From Rhizobium rhizogenes NBRC 13257 (lineage in GTDB: Bacteria > Pseudomonadota > Alphaproteobacteria > Rhizobiales > Rhizobiaceae), in the NCBI RefSeq assembly GCF_000696095.1, contig NZ_BAYX01000002.1, positions 372,001 to 436,000 on the forward strand: a DNA stretch of 64,000 nucleotides. The letters are read 5' to 3'. Positions within the stretch are counted from its first letter, which is position 1. The number at the start of each line of letters is the position of its first letter. The notes beneath the pieces are model-generated. The model was not told the DNA's origin and did no database searches. It worked only from the letters and a program-made list of their open reading frames with translations. Position numbers and translations under genes: made by a program. Below, piece after piece: positions 49,687 to 63,190 of the stretch.

Positions 49687-51009
49687 ATGCGCCTGTCTCG
49701 TTACTTCATGCCCATCCTGAAGGAAAATCCCAAGGAGGCGGAAATCGTTTCCCACCGGCTGATGCTGCGTGCCGGCATGATCCGTCAGCAGTCGCAAGGC
49801 ATCTATTCCTGGCTGCCGTTGGGCAAGCGTGTTCTCGACAAGGTCAACAAGATTATCCGTGAGGAGCAGAACCGTTCCGGCGCCATCGAGCTGTCGATGC
49901 CGACCTTGCAGTCGGCCGAGCTCTGGCAGGAAAGCGGTCGTTACGACGCTTATGGCAAGGAGATGCTACGCATCAAGGACCGTCAGGACCGGCCCATGCT
50001 CTACGGTCCGACCAACGAGGAGATGATCACCGACATCTTCCGTTCCTCCGTCAAGTCCTACAAGGACCTGCCGCTGAACCTCTACCATATCCAGCTGAAG
50101 TTCCGCGACGAGATCCGTCCGCGCTTCGGCACGATGCGCTCGCGTGAGTTCATGATGAAGGATGCCTATTCCTTCGATCTGACGCAGGAAGGCGCCGTGA
50201 TCGCCTACAACAAGATGTTCGCGGCCTATCTGCGCACCTTCGATCGTCTTGGTCTGAGGGCAATTCCGATGCGTGCCGACACCGGCCCCATCGGCGGCGA
50301 GCTCAGCCATGAGTTCATCATCCTCGCTGATACCGGCGAATCCGAAGTCTTCTGCCATAAGGATTTCGTCAATTTCGACATTCCATCGGAAGACACGAAC
50401 TTTGATGACGTCGCCGGCCTGAAGGGCATCTTCGACAAATGGACGTCGCTTTATGCGGCAACCTCCGAAATGCACGACGAGGCGACCTTCAACGCTATCC
50501 CCGAAGGCGAGCGCCTGTCGGCCCGCGGCATCGAAGTCGGCCACATCTTCTATTTCGGCACGAAATATTCCGAGCCGATGGGTGCGAAAGTGCAGGGTCC
50601 GGATGGCAAGGAACACGCCGTCCACATGGGATCTTACGGTATCGGCCCGACACGCCTTGTTCCCGCCATCATCGAAGCATCGCATGACGAGAACGGAATC
50701 ATCTGGCCGGCCTCGGTCGCGCCCTTTGATGTCGTCGTGATCAACATGAAGTCCGGCGACCAGGCCTGCGACGCCGCTTGCGAGACGATCTACGCGGCTC
50801 TGTCCAAGGCTGGCAAGGATGTCCTGTTCGACGATCGGGACGATCGTGCCGGAACGAAGTTCGCGACGGCCGATCTGATCGGCGTGCCCGTGCAGATCAT
50901 CGTCGGGCCGCGTTCGATCGCGGGCGGCGAAGTGGAAGTCAAGGACCGCAAGACGGGCGCCCGCGAGACGATGACCGTCGAAGCGGCGATCAATAAACTG
51001 GCAGGCTGA
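49687..51009 (+). CDS. proS: Prolyl-tRNA synthetase (alphaproteobacterial short form)
   Basis: A 440-residue class II aminoacyl-tRNA synthetase. Motif 2/3 regions [26 protein letters not shown] and [16 protein letters not shown] are clear. The editing insertion present in the 570-residue enteric enzyme is missing, as in the alphaproteobacterial form. It charges tRNA-Pro. The ATG at 49687 begins [15 protein letters not shown], the conserved N-terminus; upstream codons are untranslated leader. lolC and lolD follow closely and are probably co-transcribed. Confidence 0.95.
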
Positions 51010-51032
51010 TACAGGAATAGGATGAGAAGCGA

Positions 51033-52343
51033 ATGGCGGTAACCGCGGCAGCCGAGCAGCAGGAAAAGTCTTTCACGACTGGTCCGTCATCGCGTCCATT
51101 CTCCGGTTTCGAGCGGCTTGTCGCCTGGCGCTATCTGCGCTCCCGGCGCAAGGAAGCATCGATTTCGGTCATTGCCGGCTTCTCGCTGGTCGGCATCATG
51201 CTCGGCGTCGCGGCGCTGATCATCGTCATGGCCGTGATGAACGGTTTTCGCGCCGAGCTTTTCAAGCAGATTCTCGGCTTCAACGGCCATGTCATTGTCC
51301 AGCCAATCGATTCACCGCTGAATGACTATGCCTCGCTCGCTCAGAAATTTGCAGCCGTTCCCGGCGTCACCATGGCTTTGCCGTTGGTCGAGGGCGAGAC
51401 GCTCGCCTCCGGTCGCGGCGGCTCCGGCACAGGCGCGCTTGTGCGCGGCATCCGCTCCGAGGACCTGACGAAGCTCAAGACGGTTTCGGACCATATCGTC
51501 GATGGCGACATGGTCGGCTTTGCCGCCGGCCAAGGCGTCATGGTGGGGTCGCGCCTGGCACGGCAACTCGGCCTCACGGTCGGCGACCAGATCACGCTGA
51601 CCGCGCCCGACGGCGATGTCACGCCGTTCGGGGTCAATCCGCGCGTCAAGGCCTATAGTATTTCCGGCATCTTCGAAGTGGGCATGTCGGAATATGATTC
51701 CTCCGTGGTCTTCATGCCGCTCGAAGAGGCGCAGCTGTTTTTCAATGCCGAAGGGATCGTCGAGAAGATCGAGCTCTTCATCAGCAATCCCGATGATGTC
51801 GACCTCTTGAGGCCGAAGATCGAAGCGGCGGCGGGTCGTCAGATTTTTCTGACCGACTGGCGGCAGGTCAACGCCACCTTCTTCTCGGCGCTCCAGGTCG
51901 AACGCAACACCATGTTCATGATCCTGACGCTGATCGTCATCGTCGCAGCGCTCAATATCATCTCCGGCCTGATCATGCTGGTGAAGGATAAGGGAAGCGA
52001 TATTGCCATCCTTCGCACCATGGGCGCGACATCGGGCGCGATCATGCGTATCTTCTTCATGACGGGCGCCGCGATCGGCGTTGTCGGCACTCTCGCCGGC
52101 GTCGCGCTTGGCGTTCTCGTCTGCCTCAACATTGAATCGATCCGCCAGTTCTTCTCCTGGATATCGGGCACGGTGATCTTCAATCCCGAGGTCTATTTCC
52201 TCAGCAAGCTGCCGGCCCAGATGAACCTGAGCGAGACCATCTCCGTGGTCGTGATGGCGCTGACGCTATCCTTCCTCGCCACGATCTTCCCGGCCTGGCG
52301 TGCCTCGCGGCTCGATCCGGTGCAGGCGCTACGGTACGAATAA
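51033..52343 (+). CDS. lolC: Lipoprotein-releasing system permease LolC/E
   Basis: A 436-residue permease with one N-terminal helix, a periplasmic domain (about residues 60-280) and three C-terminal helices, the MacB/FtsX-like arrangement. It begins FERLVAWRYLRSRRKEASISVIAGFSLVGIMLGV and ends WRASRLDPVQALRYE, both typical. With LolD it extracts lipoproteins from the inner membrane. Alphaproteobacteria use a single LolC/E-type permease, probably as a homodimer. It starts 23 bases after proS. Confidence 0.94.
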   Translation: MAVTAAAEQQEKSFTTGPSSRPFSGFERLVAWRYLRSRRKEASISVIAGFSLVGIMLGVAALIIVMAVMNGFRAELFKQILGFNGHVIVQPIDSPLNDYASLAQKFAAVPGVTMALPLVEGETLASGRGGSGTGALVRGIRSEDLTKLKTVSDHIVDGDMVGFAAGQGVMVGSRLARQLGLTVGDQITLTAPDGDVTPFGVNPRVKAYSISGIFEVGMSEYDSSVVFMPLEEAQLFFNAEGIVEKIELFISNPDDVDLLRPKIEAAAGRQIFLTDWRQVNATFFSALQVERNTMFMILTLIVIVAALNIISGLIMLVKDKGSDIAILRTMGATSGAIMRIFFMTGAAIGVVGTLAGVALGVLVCLNIESIRQFFSWISGTVIFNPEVYFLSKLPAQMNLSETISVVVMALTLSFLATIFPAWRASRLDPVQALRYE

Positions 52344-52358
52344 GGAATTCCACATTTG

Positions 52359-53042
52359 ATGAAACGCAACGTCGTTCTCCAGCTCTCGGGCGTGGAGCGT
52401 CATTACGGGCAGGGCGATACCCGGCTGTCGATCCTGAAGAGCGCTGATTTCGCCCTGCATAGCGGCGAGATCGTCGCCCTGGTCGCGCCGTCCGGGACAG
52501 GTAAGTCGACGCTCCTGCATGTCGCCGGCCTGCTGGAACATCCCGATGCCGGCGAGGTGACGATCAACGGCCATGCCTGTGAAGGACTGTCCGATGAAAA
52601 GCGCACGGCCGTTCGCCGCAGCGAAATCGGTTTCGTCTATCAGTTTCATCATTTGCTGCCGGAGTTTTCAGCGCTTGAAAATATCATGATGCCGCAGCTG
52701 ATTTCCGGCCTCTCGCGGAAGGAGGCAAGCGTCCGCGCTGCCCAGCTTCTCGATTACATGCGTATCGGCCACCGTGCCGATCACCGCCCGGCAGAACTGT
52801 CCGGCGGCGAGCAGCAGCGCGTCGCCATCGCCCGCGCCGTTGCCAATGCGCCGCTGGTGCTGCTGGCCGACGAGCCGACCGGCAACCTCGACCCTGAAAC
52901 CGCGCATTATGTCTTCGACGCGCTCGAAGCGCTGGTGCGGCAGTCGGGTCTTGCAGCGCTGATCGCCACGCACAATCACGACCTTGCGGCCCGCATGGAT
53001 CGTCGCGTTACCATCAACGACGGCAAGGTCGTCGAGTTCTGA
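52359..53042 (+). CDS. lolD: Lipoprotein-releasing system ATP-binding protein LolD
   Basis: A 227-residue ABC ATPase with Walker [10 protein letters not shown], the Q-loop [19 protein letters not shown] characteristic of LolD, signature LSGGEQQR and Walker [12 protein letters not shown]. The ATG at 52359 (a TTG precedes it) lies 15 bases after lolC. It powers lipoprotein release from the inner membrane. Confidence 0.94.
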
Positions 53043-53049
53043 TCGTCCG

Positions 53050-53529
53050 TCAGGGGACGATCAGCCCGCCGCGATAGTCCAGCTCGTAAGCCTTGCGCTC
53101 ATTCACCAGGATGACTTCGTGGCCGATGAAGTGATCGCAGCCGCCGGTGCTGCGGTCGACATAGCGGCCGAGCGGATGGTCGAATTCGAAGCCGCCGAGA
53201 AAGCGCTTCTCATCGAGATAGAGCCGCAGCAGCGACGCCTTGATGATCATCCCCGCCGTCGTGCCGTCGATCAGATCGGGCTCGACGATGCGTCCGAAAT
53301 AATTCATCGCCCAGACCGGCTTATCATCGAGCCAGACAATTTCCTGTCCGGCGAAATCCGTCCCGCCGAAATAGCTGTCGAGGTAGCGCCAGCGGCCGCT
53401 GGCATAACCGATATCATGTGAACCGCTGCGGCAGGACGGCAGTCTTTCGCCATCGCCGACATAGGTTTCGGCCTTCGCGGTGACAATGAAATGATTCAGC
53501 TCGGCAGGATCCGGCACGGTTCTCTCCAT
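53050..53529 (-). CDS. DUF5680-family protein, candidate SOS gene
   Basis: A 159-residue soluble protein. The start ELNHFIVTAKAETYVGDGERLPSCRSGSHDIGY and the central YLDSYFGGTDFAGQEIVW with WAMNYFGRI are the hallmarks of the DUF5680 domain, also found fused to XRE-type regulators; here it stands alone with no DNA-binding part. Its function is unknown. An exact GAAC-N7-GAAC LexA-type site ends 45 bases upstream of the start, so it may be induced by DNA damage. It converges with lolD across an 8-base gap. Confidence 0.8.
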   Translation of the reverse strand: MERTVPDPAELNHFIVTAKAETYVGDGERLPSCRSGSHDIGYASGRWRYLDSYFGGTDFAGQEIVWLDDKPVWAMNYFGRIVEPDLIDGTTAGMIIKASLLRLYLDEKRFLGGFEFDHPLGRYVDRSTGGCDHFIGHEVILVNERKAYELDYRGGLIVP

Positions 53530-53573
53530 TCATGGTGAGCGATCAACATGTCACGTGCACCACGATTTGTAAA

Positions 53574-53588
53574 GAACATATAGTGAAC
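53574..53588 (-). promoter_or_regulatory. LexA box upstream of the DUF5680 gene
   Basis: The sequence GAACATATAGTGAAC is an exact GAAC-N7-GAAC operator. It lies between the end of the secreted-protein gene (53602) and the start of the DUF5680 gene (53529), both on the minus strand. It can therefore only control the latter. Confidence 0.7.
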
Positions 53589-53601
53589 AAATAGGGTGTT
53601 G

Positions 53602-54198
53602 TTACTGGCTGACGCCGCAGCCTTTTTGGCCGAGATCGTCCTCCCAGTCCTCGATCTTGACGGTCTTGCCTTCGGTCTTGAGGTCTTTGCCGCCCTTCGT
53701 CGCCTTGCCGGTCAGGACATTGTAATCGCAGCTATAGCCGCCATCGGGGTTCAGCGTGTCGCGGTACACATAGGTGTATCCGGCAACGACGAAGGCGTTG
53801 TTGCGGAAGGCGAGCGTGAGCGTCTGCTCCCAGCGGTCGCGTCCGATGGCATCATTCTGCGAGGTGACGGCGAGCGAGCCGTTCGGGAGCGCCTTGATGG
53901 AGGGTTCCTGGCCAAAGATGCCGTCGGGCTCCGTACTGCCCCACACCTTGTTCGGTGCGGCCGCCGCAAGCCTCAGCAGGGAGTGTTCGCCGTCGCGCAG
54001 GTAGATGTAGATACCGATGGAACTGTCCGCCTGATCATCAGGCGCCGGCGCCACCAGCAAAGCGAGATCCGGTTTGCCGTCCTTGTTCCAGTCGCCGATT
54101 GCGGCATCGACGATACGCCCGGGCGCGACGGCGGTTTCGGCGGCGGCCGCCGTGGCGGCAGAAATCGAAATGAGGGCTGCGACAGCAAGCGGTTTCAT
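53602..54198 (-). CDS. Secreted protein with calcium-binding-like repeat (198 aa)
   Basis: The start at 54198 has GGGAG upstream and opens a Sec signal peptide (KPLAVAAL ... AAAAETAV). The mature protein carries a DWNKDGKPDLALL motif near its N-terminus, as in FG-GAP/VCBS or dockerin-like calcium loops, and a C-terminal half with two cysteines (YSCDYN, KGCGVSQ). It is likely periplasmic or exported, with unknown function. It is divergent from the SOS-type promoter at 54295 and ends just before the LexA box of the DUF5680 gene. Confidence 0.78.
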   Translation of the reverse strand: MKPLAVAALISISAATAAAAETAVAPGRIVDAAIGDWNKDGKPDLALLVAPAPDDQADSSIGIYIYLRDGEHSLLRLAAAAPNKVWGSTEPDGIFGQEPSIKALPNGSLAVTSQNDAIGRDRWEQTLTLAFRNNAFVVAGYTYVYRDTLNPDGGYSCDYNVLTGKATKGGKDLKTEGKTVKIEDWEDDLGQKGCGVSQ

Positions 54199-54294
54199 GG
54201 TGGTCTCCCCGTTCATTCTCTCTTAGCTGCGGCTGGTTCTTCCGTCCATTGGCATGCAGGCAAACATCGATGATGAAATTTATTGATGGTCCTA

Positions 54295-54323
54295 TTGACT
54301 CTCGAACAAAAATAGAACAAATA
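54295..54323 (+). promoter_or_regulatory. SOS promoter with LexA box between -35 and -10
   Basis: TTGACT (54295-54300) and CAAATA (54318-54323) are 17 bases apart. The exact operator GAACAAAAATAGAAC occupies 54304-54318, covering the spacer. LexA bound here would block RNA polymerase. Transcription would start just before the 28-codon ORF at 54352. Confidence 0.75.
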
Positions 54324-54351
54324 AGAAACATAACGAGTAAGGAGCGCGTAA

Positions 54352-54438
54352 ATGACCGATATCATTCGAGACGTTGCAGCATTCACCTCCATCGTGATGT
54401 TCGTCGCCAGCTTTTCCCTGATCATGATGGCGATGTGA
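54352..54438 (+). CDS. 28-residue membrane peptide under a LexA-type operator
   Basis: ATG at 54352 with AAGGAG 7 bases upstream opens 28 codons ending TGA (54436-54438). The first eight residues are polar and charged (TDIIRD), and the remainder is a single hydrophobic helix of about 20 residues rich in Met, Phe, Val, Ser and Ile. Size, topology and SOS-type control match SidA of Caulobacter (29 residues, inhibits division through FtsW/FtsN) and TisB of E. coli (29 residues, depolarises the membrane). No sequence identity with either is claimed. A CACGGG/CCCGTG hairpin lies 10 bases after the stop. dnaE begins 117 bases downstream. Confidence 0.72.
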   Translation: MTDIIRDVAAFTSIVMFVASFSLIMMAM

Positions 54439-54555
54439 ATCTTATCCCCACGGGTGTTGCGATGCGCCCGTGAATCATGAGGACAGCTTCTGGACTTTAT
54501 CGTCCGCTATGCCGACAATGCAGCCGATTCATTTGGGCATGCGGAAGGGCATAAA

Positions 54556-58049
<3,494 letters not shown>

Positions 58050-58053
<4 letters not shown>

Positions 58054-59318
58054 CCCTTCTTGCCCAAAGCGCCTTTATTGGTGATGGTGATGAAATCGGT
58101 GCCGTTGCCGGTTTCAGGGCCGACGCCGGTGTCGGAAATCGTCAGGGACGATCCTGCCGTCAGCAGATCGCCGATCCTGCGCCTGATGTCGTCGGGGATG
58201 GTAATGCGGTTCAGCGCGCGGTCGGCGGCGTCGAATGATTGCGCCTGCTCTTCGCTGGTGATGCCGAGCCGCTTCTTGGTATCCTTGGAAAGATCGTCTT
58301 CCAGCGTCACGCCGAACCAGTCCGTCTTGCCGTTTATCCTGTCGACCGTATTTGCGGTGAAGAAATGTGTGCCGAGCGCTTCCTGCGGCTCGGCGATGAT
58401 TGCCGGTGCTTCGAACAGCGGCTTGAAGTTCTGGCGAACCATGATAGCGCCGTTCGGCGGCTCGCCCTTGCCGGCAGCGGCATAGACGGCCTTCATCAGC
58501 GCGGGGCTGACAAGGCTGCCCGATGTCGTGATGCCGTGGGCTTTCTTGAAGTCGCCGATCGCCTGCACGGTCGCCGGTCCAAGCAGTCCGTCCGGGGTGC
58601 CGGTCGCAAAACCCAAGGCGTTCAACAGGCCCTGCAGATCACGAACGTTTTCGCGTAGCCCCCGGCGGGTCATCAGGATGCTGAGTGGTGCCTGGTCGAC
58701 CGGCGGTGCTGTCCGCACAGCTGGTGGCACAGGCAAGGCGGCGGCATCGTTGGTGGCGACCTGCACCGGCTGCGCCTGCGGTATGAAGACGGCTGTCGTC
58801 GGACGTAATTCGAGATCGGAGAACAGCACGGAGGCGGGCGCTGCCTCGGGCTGGAACAGCATGGCATGCTGGAAAGGCTGCGGCACCAGCGGATGGTCGG
58901 CTATGACGACGTGCACGCCGCGCTCGGTCATCTGATAGAGCATCTTGGCAAAGGCCTTCGGCATACGCACGCAGCCATGCGAGGCAGGATAGTTCGGCAC
59001 CGAACTCGATTCGTGCAGCGCGATGCCGGACCAGGTCAGGCGCTGCATGAAGGGCATCGGCGCGTTCGAATAGAGATTGGATTCGTGATAGACCTCCTTC
59101 TCCAGAATGGAGAAGATGCCGCTCGGTGTCGTGTGGCCGCGCTTGCCGGTCGAAACCTTCGATGTCGCCACCACCTTGTCGCCGTCATAGACGGCCAGCG
59201 ACTGCCGGTCCTTCGACACGACGATCTGCAAGGTGCGGACATCGTCCGCCGCAAGGGCAGGGTGAACGAGGGCTGTGGCCGACAACAGGCCAAGTCCGAA
59301 AAGAAAACGCGGCTTCAT
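58050..59318 (-). CDS. L,D-transpeptidase (YkuD) with peptidoglycan-binding domain
   Basis: A 422-residue periplasmic enzyme. A Sec signal peptide (cleavage after ALA, about residue 23) is followed by a YkuD domain with active-site C116 in HESSSVPNYPASHGCVRM. A Pro/Ala-rich linker and a PG_binding_1 domain (LQGLLNALGFATGTPDGLLGPATVQAIGDFKKAHG) follow. It would form 3-3 crosslinks, which dominate polar growth in Rhizobiales, or attach proteins to peptidoglycan. A GTG two codons upstream is possible, but the ATG at 59318 fits the signal peptide. Confidence 0.9.
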
Positions 59319-59516
59319 ACACACATACCAAACGCAATACTCGTATTGATGTAGACTAGACTTCGAAGTTTAAGGAAGACTTGAAGACAAGCCTTCAGTT
59401 CGAAATGCTTTTTCGGCGATTCACCAGGAAAAGACCGCTCAATGAGCGCAATTGCGGTAGGAAGTATTTTATGTAATTCTTAAGTTACGGATTGTGGGGC
59501 CGTGTGGGGGTTCGAC

Positions 59517-61268
59517 ATGCAAGTGGACGTGATCGAAACGCTGGAAGATCTGCAAGCGCTGAAAGGCAACTGGGATCGGATCTACGAGATCGACCCGGAA
59601 GCGCACTGCTTTTTGTCCTCGACATGGATAATGAGCTGGTTTGCCTCGCGCACCTTGCCCTGGTTCGTACTGGCGGCGAGGGAGGAGGCTGACGGCGCCT
59701 ATGTGGCTTTCCTCCCGATCCAGATCGGTACGGGCCTCGATCGGGGCAAGGGCTTTTACAATATCGTCGTCATGGGCGGCTCCTACTTCGCACCCTATAC
59801 CGGCATTCTCAGCGATCCCGCCTATGCCGACGCATCGGCCCTGGCCTTTGCCGAGCATATCCGCAGCTTTCATTGGCGCAGCCTGCATCTGGACGGCATC
59901 GATCGATCATCTGTGCGGATCGGACTATTCCTTGACCATTTCCCGCCCAAGGATTTTACCGGCGATAGGGTCAGGCACCCCGCGCGGATCCAGAATGCCA
60001 CAGACCGGGTCGATCCGGAGATCCATCTCCATGTGACGCTGCCGGCGGATTTCGAATCCTTCCTCAGCGAAAAACTGCGTCCGCGCGTGCGGCGCAATGT
60101 CCGCCTTGGCCTGCGCAAGCTGGATGGCTCGACGACGCTGCGGGTGACGCATGGCGACAGTGGAGCCGGTGAGAAGGACTTGGCGACGCTGCTGGGCCTC
60201 TGGGAGAAGCAATGGGGACAGCGCGATCCGGGCCATGCGAGCTACATTCTCGACAATGCGCGGTCGGTTCTGCCGGATTGCATCCGCGATGGCGATCTCT
60301 TTTTGCCGATCCTGTGGCAGGACGAGACGCCGATCGCGGCTGCTGCCATCCTTCTCGACCGACCCAGGAAGAGCTTGATCTGTTTCCTGAGCGCACGCGA
60401 CGCGGCAATCCGGGATATGTCCCCAGGCTTGATGCTACATGCCTATACGATCCGCTGGGCGATCGAGAACGGCTTTCGCATCTACGATCTCGGTGCCGGC
60501 AATTATGCCCATAAGTATATTTTTGGTTCCGTCAGTCGGCGCCTGGAGCACTATAGGATCGACACAAGGACGGGGTGGAACCTCGGCGAGCGGCTGGATC
60601 CGCATAGTCTGCCGCTTGTGCTTGCCCGTGTGAAAGGCCTTCATGCTGACGGCGATCAGAGCGATGTCGAGATCGGCTGCCGGCAGATCCTTGCCGTCGA
60701 GCCTGCGCATCGCGAGGCATTGGCGCTCTATCGCGATATCGCAGCGTCGCGGACTCTCTGGCAGACACTCTGGTCCGATGATGCCCCGGCTGGTGAGCAG
60801 GGATCTACCGATCGCGTCCAGGCGGAAAGGCAATGCCGCGCCGCGATCGCTGAAAATCCCGGAGATTTCGATGCCGCGCGCCGGCTGAGCATACTCCTGC
60901 TGCTGCGCGGCGAGGCCGGGGAGGCGGAGGCCGAGATCGCGCGGGCGCTGGAGCTTCGCCCCGATTCCGCTGCCGCCCATTGCACCTACGGCAATATCCT
61001 TGCCGCGACCCGGAATTTCGAGCCGGCCGTCATCCGTTATGATCGCGCGATCGCCCTGGAGCCGGACCATGCGGTTGCCCACAACAACAAGGGCAACGCC
61101 TTGCGCCATCTGGGACGTCCTGACGAGGCGCTGGCGAGCTATGACGACGCGATTGCGGTCAGGCCGGACTACGAACAGGCGCTTGCCAATCGCGCAGCAC
61201 TTTTCGATGAGGAGCCGGACATGCTGCCGCCCCTCTCTCACGTCCCGCGCTTGCCGCCGAATGTGTAG
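59517..61268 (+). CDS. BioF2/CelD-like acyltransferase fused to TPR repeats
   Basis: A 583-residue cytoplasmic protein. Residues 1-330 form a double GNAT-type fold (CelD/BioF2-like, as in polysaccharide or lipid N-acyltransferases), with [18 protein letters not shown] and the acceptor-like [14 protein letters not shown] segment. Residues about 370-565 contain TPR repeats ([54 protein letters not shown]). The substrate is unknown. The ATG at 59517 is chosen over a GTG at 59502 because similarity starts there. The 3' end overlaps the dinB 3' end by 31 bases on the opposite strand. Confidence 0.8.
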
Positions 61269-62527
61269 CCGGTTTCCACCGTCTTGTTGCCGAATTTTTC
61301 CCTGAGCTTGTCCATTGCCGCCTCGGCTGCCGCGCGGCGGCTCGCCTGTTCGTCGATCAGATCCGGCGGATCGGCGCGGGCGGCATCGCAGAGATCGGTG
61401 ACGCCGATGCCGATCAGGCGGAATTTCGTGCCATCGGTCTCATGTTCGAGGAGCCGCAGGCCGGTACGAAAAATGCGGTCGGCAAGCTGGGTCGGGTCTT
61501 CCAGGCGGCGGTTGCGGGTCCGGCTTTTGAAATCCGCCGATTTCAGCTTCAACACGACGGTGTGCCCGGCAATGTCGCCGCGTTTCAGGCGTCGCGATAC
61601 TTTTTCCGAGAGATCGCGCAGGATCGGCACAAGATCTTCATGGCGTGAGATATCCTCAAAGAAGGTCGTCTCTGCCGATACACTTTTGGCCGCTTCGTTC
61701 GGATGCACCGTGCGGTCATCGACGCCGCGCGACAGGCGGTAAAGTCGCTGGCCGATGACGCCATAGCGGCGCATCAGGTCGCCTTCGTCCATGGTCTGCA
61801 ACTGGCCGATGGTGCGGATGCCGTCGCGCTCCAGGGTCGCGGCAAAGGCCTTGCCGACGCCCCAGATGGTCGTCACCGAACGCGGCTCCAGAAACGACAA
61901 TGCCTCCTCGCGGCCGATCACGGAAAAGCCGCGCGGCTTCTGCAAGTCGGAGGCGACCTTGGCGAGAAACTTGCAATAGGAAAGACCGACCGAGATGGTG
62001 ATGCCGATCTCGCTCTCGATACGCTTGACGAATTTGGCGAGGATCCGCGCCGGCGGATCATGATGCAGGCGCTGCGTGCCCTCAAGCTCGAGAAAGGCCT
62101 CGTCGATCGAAAGCGGCTGCACCAGCGGCGTCAGTTCCTGCATCAGCGTGCGTACCTCGCGGCCGACGCGGACATATTTCTCCATGTTCGGGCGAATGAC
62201 GACCGCCTGCGGACAGGCCTCCAGCGCCTTGAACATCGGCATGGCCGATCGGACACCATGGATGCGGGCGATATAGCAGGCAGTGGATACGACACCGCGC
62301 TTGCCGCCGCCGATGATGACTGGCTTGTCGACCAACTCCGGATTGTCACGCTTCTCGATTGAGGCATAGAAGGCGTCACAATCGATATGCGCCAGCGTCA
62401 GGTCGTAGAGTTCGCGGTGATAGACGAGGCGCGGACTGCCGCAGGCACGACAGCGCGCACGCTCGCTCAATTGCTCGCTCAAGCAATCGCGGCAAAAACC
62501 GGAAATTTTGTCGGGCGCGCTGGTCAT
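61238..62527 (-). CDS. dinB: DNA polymerase IV (Y family) with N-terminal zinc motif
   Basis: A 429-residue translesion polymerase. The catalytic aspartate D49 lies in [15 protein letters not shown] and the second acidic pair in [11 protein letters not shown]. The little-finger domain ends with GIGVTDL. Before the polymerase domain are C12/C15 and C26/C29 (CRDC, CRAC), a four-Cys zinc ribbon not found in the 350-residue enteric enzyme. The ATG at 62527 lies only 7 bases from a LexA box and lacks a Shine-Dalgarno sequence, so the mRNA may be nearly leaderless. It is divergent from a GNAT gene. Confidence 0.93.
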
Positions 62528-62534
62528 GAAACGA

Positions 62535-62549
62535 GAACAAAAATTGAAC
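62535..62549 (-). promoter_or_regulatory. LexA box of dinB
   Basis: GAACAAAAATTGAAC is an exact GAAC-N7-GAAC operator, 7 bases upstream of the dinB start. It differs at only two spacer positions from the site in front of the 28-residue peptide gene. Confidence 0.85.
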
Positions 62550-62608
62550 ATCGCTACCTTATGTTCTAAGCTCGCGAGTCTCAAGGCGGAAAAACGCCAA
62601 AGGAGGGG

Positions 62609-63190
62609 ATGTTGGAGGAATTGAAAGTGCTGCCCCTGACGTCGGATCGCTGGGGTGATTTCGAGACGCTCTTCGGCCCGAGCGGCGCCTGCTATGGTTG
62701 CTGGTGCACCCATTTCCGCATTCCGACATCTGAGCGGAAGACGATGGATGGTGATGGCAAGAAGGCGTTCATGCAGGCAAGGGTCGCTGCCGGTCCGTCG
62801 CCCGGCATTCTCGGCTATATCGGCGAACGCCCGGTCGCCTGGGCACAGGTCGGCCCGCGCTCGGAACTGCCGAAATGGAATTCCCCGAAAACCGTGTCAC
62901 GGCCGCTCGATCCCGCCGATGCCGAAGACGACTCGGTCTGGGCCGTGAGCTGCTTCTTCATGAATTCACGCGATCGCGGCAAGGGATATAGCCACCGCAT
63001 GCTGTCGGAGGCGGTGAATTTCGCCAAGGCATCCGGCGCGCGCATTCTTGAAGGCTGTCCCATCGAACGGACGAAACAGTCGAAATCCGTCGGCCTCTAT
63101 GTCGGATCGCTGCGGATATTCGAGGCGGCCGGATTTTCCGAGGTGGCAAAACGAAAGGATGGGCGACCCTTGATGCGCCTTGTTCTCTGA
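62609..63190 (+). CDS. GNAT-family acetyltransferase
   Basis: A 193-residue N-acetyltransferase. The acetyl-CoA loop reads [12 protein letters not shown], and [16 protein letters not shown] is the usual C-terminal strand-helix. The N-terminal part has a Cys-rich [12 protein letters not shown] segment, as in a group of GNAT proteins often annotated as hypothetical. AAGGAGGGG lies just upstream of the ATG. It is divergently transcribed from dinB across 81 bases, so the LexA site might also affect it. The substrate is unknown. Confidence 0.85.

Follow-up and report, generated by a model that had tools for sequence, protein, structure and literature searches.

TisB of Escherichia coli is an SOS-controlled small membrane peptide. 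It is amphipathic, with a helix that has a charged face, and the tisB gene is accompanied by an antisense RNA and a structured leader. YneA, SosA, ChiZ and DivS, which are damage-induced membrane division inhibitors, are larger proteins found in Gram-positive bacteria and mycobacteria. The described system that lies closest to the locus reported here is SidA of Caulobacter. In the excerpts of PMC4211646, SidA is a 29-amino-acid (aa) inner-membrane protein that acts on FtsW and thereby halts late division; suppressors occur in ftsW and ftsI, and the FtsW substitution A31K, which suppresses SidA but not DidA, likely prevents binding. DidA, also of Caulobacter, is another small membrane protein that is induced by damage and inhibits the FtsW/I/N complex; it is described as induced by DriD rather than LexA and as binding FtsN (PMC4211646, in part). 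The same excerpts call yneA, divS, chiZ and sidA unrelated. Co-fold models of low confidence place SidA on TM7 of FtsW, and ChiZ, SosA and SidA have been modelled, again with low confidence, on FtsW beside YneA (PMC13396833, in part).

In rhizobia, a translated novel small ORF, sORF25, has been described in the dnaE1 5′UTR of S. meliloti and a role as an upstream ORF (uORF) suggested for it; the main text makes no mention of SidA, SOS or LexA (PMC10117765). Among the literature matches listed, which are open-licence papers and so make weak evidence of absence, there is no report of SidA in rhizobia, of an SOS inhibitor of division in rhizobia or agrobacteria, or of induction, membrane location or a division effect of the rhizobial peptide described below.

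Layout of the locus

The window, a stretch of 64,000 nucleotides from the genome of Rhizobium rhizogenes NBRC 13257, contains an ORF of 28 codons on the forward strand (54352–54438), with its ATG at 54352 and its stop codon at 54436–54438. The encoded peptide, MTDIIRDVAAFTSIVMFVASFSLIMMAM, is a predicted single-helix membrane peptide of 28 aa, and the ORF itself, the selection acting on it and the profiles described below mark it as a putative sidA orthologue. The ATG is preceded at a distance of 7 bases by a Shine–Dalgarno sequence, AAGGAG (54339–54344, +), which was compared among relatives. Further upstream a −35 element, TTGACT (54295–54300, +), can be read from the sequence, and TTGAC is found 4 bases ahead of the LexA box in 57/63 Rhizobiaceae-type loci. 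The predicted LexA operator, an exact GAAC-N7-GAAC (GAACAAAAATAGAAC, 54304–54318, +), lies within the promoter spacer. A third half-site, AAAC (54326–54329, +), which is GAAC in some relatives, follows at the next 11-base step. The putative −10 element, CAAATA (54318–54323, +), is weak and was placed by eye, with a 17-base spacer separating it from the −35.

Downstream, a gap of 117 bases separates the peptide ORF from the ATG (54556) of dnaE (54556–58053, +), which encodes the 1165-aa alpha subunit of DNA polymerase III (TIGR00594). The conserved upstream neighbour is an ABC ATPase gene (52356–53042, +; PF00005) that we take to be lolD-like; it is itself preceded by a permease gene (51033–52343, +; PF12704, PF02687), presumably lolC/E-like. 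An Rfam scan of 50000–60000 gave no match. The initial annotation had described the TTGACT/GAAC-N7-GAAC layout, the AAGGAG and the 28-codon ORF before dnaE, and direct reading together with conservation in relatives confirms these elements. Of the promoter that it proposed, the −35 and the operator are borne out, but the weak CAAATA is insecure as a −10 because a sigma-70 consensus scan calls no promoter at the peptide gene. With one mismatch allowed, the box pattern occurs 51 times in the 64-kb window against 48.1 expected from shuffles, which is no enrichment; the case therefore rests on position and conservation, the motif alone being insufficient.

Conservation and selection among rhizobia

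A DNA query of 361 bases around the peptide ORF was run against same-genus genomes and against genomes from the order's other families. It matched 36/37 of the former, with R. rhizogenes itself included and G025 as the genome without a match, and 0/24 of the latter. The weakest same-genus matches still cover 54290 to 54436–54438, that is, the −35 region through the end of the ORF. Named dnaE loci were taken as the best 80 of 593 matches, and among these the peptide is found ahead of dnaE in loci of Rhizobium, Agrobacterium, Neorhizobium, Sinorhizobium/Ensifer and Shinella, and also of Brucella, Bartonella, Phyllobacterium and Bradyrhizobium. S. meliloti sORF25 occupies the same place before dnaE1, where the Sinorhizobium/Ensifer loci L045, L046 and L049 carry a homologue. 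Equated by position, sORF25 is probably the rhizobial SidA homologue gene; if it is the same gene, its expected peptide would be like M(A/T)DFVRDLAAFASMSLFIASISVIALG(I/L).

Selection on the ORF was estimated from 49 distinct ORFs, drawn from the 60/63 Rhizobiaceae-type loci whose ORF fitted the start pattern. The dN/dS is 0.157 (ratio of means; mean dN 0.152, mean dS 0.972) over 980/1176 pairs, which remained after removal of any whose dS was 0 or ≥2, and the start-pattern selection somewhat lowers dN. The entropies at codon positions 1, 2 and 3 of the same ORFs are 0.51, 0.16 and 1.04. This pattern, with the low dN/dS, indicates that the amino-acid sequence of the peptide is what selection preserves. 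The initial annotation had named conservation in relatives as one point on which its reading would turn; box and ORF are both kept there, and codon-level constraint is present (dN/dS about 0.16). The peptide contains a single hydrophobic segment, with a maximal 17-residue Kyte–Doolittle mean of 2.24 as against 2.22 for the Caulobacter peptide discussed below. No family model in Pfam or NCBIfam matches it (four family peptides tested), and PHROGs gave matches only at E 0.015 or weaker, for 1–2 of 35 members.

Homology to the Caulobacteraceae peptides

The Caulobacteraceae were reached via the holdfast protein HfaD (G123); dnaE was sought in 99 members of the family and 30 loci were examined, at which comparable small ORFs stand directly ahead of dnaE. 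An iterated HMM search, seeded with ten Rhizobiaceae peptides only, was run against 25,045 six-frame ORFs from 169 loci, position being unused. It gave 111 matches at E<1e-3, from 52/80 named loci, 30/30 same-genus loci and 29/30 Caulobacteraceae loci. At E<0.5 there are 120 matches (116 distinct sequences, four locus pairs being the same contig twice), lying ahead of dnaE on the dnaE strand: 113 are at most 450 bp from dnaE, two are at 484 and 623 bp, and five were placed by coordinates. The first match away from dnaE has E=5.6. A harsher search over 57,588 overlapping sequence windows included 104 of these in its last round, made up of 101 of the same ORFs (25 from Caulobacteraceae) and another 3 windows drawn from these ORFs. 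After six rounds it had thus reached 25 Caulobacteraceae, compared with 29 in the ORF-based search. Twenty column-permuted seed sets put through the same 57,588-window search returned zero matches.

A comparison of profile with profile, built from 16 Hyphomicrobiales and 12 Caulobacteraceae peptides, gave a probability of 92.3% and E=5.6e-7 as a single comparison, with an alignment that spans columns 1–20 only. BLASTP of the rhizobial against the Caulobacter peptide, as two sequences, produced no alignment, so that homology rests on the profiles and on the intermediates. These support homology of the rhizobial peptide to the 29-aa peptide encoded next to dnaE in Caulobacter, and the shared position supports orthology; the Caulobacter peptide was matched in 72/75 Caulobacter genomes (E≤1).

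The Caulobacter peptide was identified in the genome G326. The GcrA of this genome is identical to PDB chain 7ye1_G, from an entry that we take to be GcrA of Caulobacter crescentus, and the three other Caulobacter genomes checked differ. In its FtsW, A31, F145 and A246 carry the numbers used in PMC4211646. On the GcrA identity and these FtsW residues G326 is taken as Caulobacter vibrioides/crescentus. The dnaE-adjacent ORF of G326 has 29 residues, behind a LexA box, GAACATCTTGTGAAC, and the lexA and dnaE genes of this genome share a contig, with about 25 kb between them. In what follows CC1926 is assumed to correspond to CCNA_02003. The SidA locus is given as CCNA_02004 in the available text of PMC10769358, and Caulobacter dnaE and lexA as CC1926 and CC1902 in that of PMC1839093. 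The naming of the G326 ORF as SidA draws on its size, its place, its LexA box and the locus numbers rather than on sequence letters.

The rhizobial peptide resembles SidA (CCNA_02004) in its size of about 29 aa, its one hydrophobic helix, R6, an acidic residue 7 and F17, as well as in its close flanking by a LexA box upstream and by dnaE downstream (the place of SidA being inferred from locus numbers) and in profile homology. It differs in having 28 aa and an MTD start, where the Caulobacter peptide has MIR, in lacking W19/M20 and in having another C-terminal half.

Conserved operators and probable LexA control

When both orientations are counted and one mismatch is allowed, a GAAC-N7-GAAC box is present in the ~110 bp ahead of the ORF in 120/120 homologues and is exact in 102. 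Control stretches of equal length had such a box in 7/120 cases (1 exact) further upstream, and in 12/120 (0 exact) downstream in dnaE. The Caulobacteraceae boxes are exact in 16/29 and have one mismatch in 13/29. A third half-site, (G/A)AAC, whose spacing is identical or differs by a single base, is seen in 54/63 Rhizobiaceae-type loci. Co-occurrence was tabulated for 159 loci, 10/169 being excluded because of a short upstream stretch or an unlocated dnaE start. Both a profile match and an exact box were found at 96; a match but no exact box is seen at 17 (4 named, 13 Caulobacteraceae), the reverse at 12 (4 named, 8 class) and neither at 34, the limit of 450 bp meaning that the matches of L097 and L110 (484 and 623 bp) are counted as no match. 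The lexA gene of the R. rhizogenes genome has a GAAC-N7-GAAC box of its own. Together with the operators conserved in 120/120 homologues, this supports LexA control of the peptide gene, as the initial annotation had claimed.

Other boxes of this type were noted. In two Mesorhizobium loci (L293 and L295), both among the eight dnaE-less candidates described below, two overlapping exact LexA boxes, equivalent to three GAAC half-sites 11 bases apart, lie 37–48 bases ahead of the peptide start, and such a triple operator may allow cooperative LexA binding. The gene adjoining the peptide gene (53050–53529, −) encodes a DUF5680 protein (PF18931) and has a box at 53574–53588. An exact GTTC-N7-GTTC box is present upstream of this gene in 43/43 loci with a tblastn match (four pairs are the same contig), and its operator suggests that it is another SOS gene, as yet uncharacterised. 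L007, L015 and L021 have a second box ~90–100 bp further up from the DUF5680 gene, which probably belongs to the peptide gene. The same LexA box is also found, exact (62535–62549), ahead of a gene for a Y-family polymerase with IMS domains, of dinB type (61238–62713, −). It lies just ahead of the probable start near 62529 and could also serve an ORF at 62609 (+).

Loci at which the peptide is not followed by dnaE

The position of the ORF could also be explained if it were a leader or upstream ORF that tunes dnaE by being translated and whose product has no function. The peptide is directly ahead of dnaE at most loci, no terminator-like site was found in 54200–54600, and uORF roles have been suggested for sORF25 in the dnaE1 5′UTR of S. 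meliloti (PMC10117765, in part). Against such a leader stands the selection on the amino acids of the peptide, and also its behaviour where dnaE lies elsewhere. At 23/80 named loci there is no profile match ahead of dnaE, including those of Mesorhizobium, Nitratireductor, Aquibium and Chelativorans. Eight of these genomes (five Mesorhizobium and one each of Nitratireductor, Aquibium and Chelativorans) were searched genome-wide with a family profile that contained none of their sequences. A candidate peptide was found elsewhere in 8/8, with E of 1.3e-5 to 0.025 and alignment over 18–28 of 29 positions.

In 0/8 of these genomes is dnaE within 1.5 kb of the candidate, yet an exact LexA box is present within 130 bp of it in 7/8, and an ABC ATPase gene is still upstream in 7/8. 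A role as dnaE leader that is always tied to dnaE is contradicted by these loci. The candidates thus argue that the peptide is not merely a dnaE leader, a reading that we regard as highly improbable, and from the candidate sequences and boxes the peptide and its operator appear to have stayed together where dnaE lies elsewhere. The weakest candidate (L297, Chelativorans sp. ZYF759; E 0.025) has no exact box and sits downstream of a gene that we take to be ssb-like. G419 has a second profile match (L298, E 0.0017), which is without a box.

Proposed function and the FtsW target

The analysis establishes the gene, selection at the protein level, a conserved operator, homology to the Caulobacter peptide and a shared position. 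We consider it likely, from these comparisons, that the peptide is a rhizobial SidA orthologue that is induced in the SOS response and inhibits late division, with FtsW as its probable target. We infer that LexA, bound to the GAAC-N7-GAAC operator inside the promoter with a further half-site in tandem, would keep the gene off. On DNA damage, active RecA would lead to cleavage of LexA and the peptide would be made, from an mRNA that probably continues into dnaE. The peptide, with one helix and a short charged head, would then insert in the inner membrane and hold the late divisome (FtsW/FtsI/FtsN) inactive, such that cells grow without division until repair is complete.

The initial annotation had proposed an analogue of SidA or TisB. 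A TisB-like SOS peptide would depolarize the membrane to slow the cell, with no inhibition of the divisome, and the size of the rhizobial peptide, its one hydrophobic helix and its LexA operator are all compatible with this. However, a charged residue within residues 9–25 is found in 0/35 aligned members, so the peptide, unlike the amphipathic TisB, has no charged face, and the likeness was rejected on this charge pattern. The profile homology points instead to the Caulobacter family, and the promoter position implies a predicted leader of ~20–25 bases, which is short of the structured tisB leader. Membrane depolarization is accordingly very unlikely as the function. The SidA half of the earlier proposal is supported, by profile homology and the same place, more strongly than was put forward, as homology and not only analogy; the TisB half is not supported. 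As SidA acts via FtsW and no charged residue occurs in 9–25, inhibition of division is the most likely reading.

FtsW is present in the R. rhizogenes genome, with 175/373 aligned residues identical. F145 and A246 are kept; residue 31 is Leu, where Caulobacter has Ala. Because A31K blocks SidA and residue 31 is Leu here, this FtsW contact may differ. A peptide of the SidA family could in principle have moved to another target, for example another part of the polar growth and division machinery of the Rhizobiales, which grow from the pole. The change at residue 31 would be in keeping with such a move, as would the difference between the rhizobial peptide and that of Caulobacter in their C-terminal half; the N-terminal half and the F17 column, on the other hand, are common to both peptides, and FtsW retains F145 and A246. 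We judge a moved target possible but unlikely, and FtsW remains the probable target of the rhizobial peptide.

Distribution in the Alphaproteobacteria

A survey of the class, with the R. rhizogenes genome and the Caulobacteraceae set apart and some families represented twice, covered 118 of the 183 genomes that have a dnaE match. Of the 118 upstream stretches, 19 have an exact box and then a small membrane ORF and 5 have the box alone, while most (94/118) have neither the pair nor a box ahead of dnaE. Among 107 stretches, a small membrane ORF follows the box in 18/23 of those with a box; when the same box positions were laid on 84 box-less stretches, such an ORF was met in 123/2100 tests (5.9%). 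The small membrane ORF is thus tied to the box ahead of dnaE in the class draws. A class-wide profile search matched 49/190 genomes at E≤1 and only 2/190 at E<0.01. The profile being too weak to extend the family, the case for a wider spread is built on the box together with a small membrane ORF, and the family appears secure by sequence profile in Hyphomicrobiales and Caulobacteraceae only.

At distant loci (L112–L127 and L319–L377) dnaE is preceded by a LexA box and by an ORF for a small membrane peptide, often with an (R/K)(D/E) head; that of L377, MTNFLKDFLALSSVVGVLWAVTVWSAIVGSALT, is an example. These ORFs are possibly diverged SidA. It is plausible that they go back to an early alphaproteobacterial ancestor. 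We lean, with some reserve, towards SidA being an old alphaproteobacterial SOS checkpoint, passed on vertically in a lolD-sidA-dnaE neighbourhood in Caulobacterales and Hyphomicrobiales, more diverged in further families, and with its FtsW contact re-tuned in the Rhizobiales, which grow at the pole.

Implications for the rhizobia

The nitrogen-fixing rhizobia and their relatives appear to share a checkpoint so far described in a single genus. If this is true, two large orders have the SidA-type checkpoint in common, and the peptide would fill the place of the SOS division inhibitor that has been missing in rhizobia, agrobacteria and related bacteria. A translated small ORF, hitherto a possible uORF, would gain a function. 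The natural variation in the peptide and in FtsW would help to map how a peptide of 28 residues stops septal wall synthesis. Rhizobia are filamentous and polyploid in some nodules, and a possible role there for a peptide that stops division is for this reason of interest.
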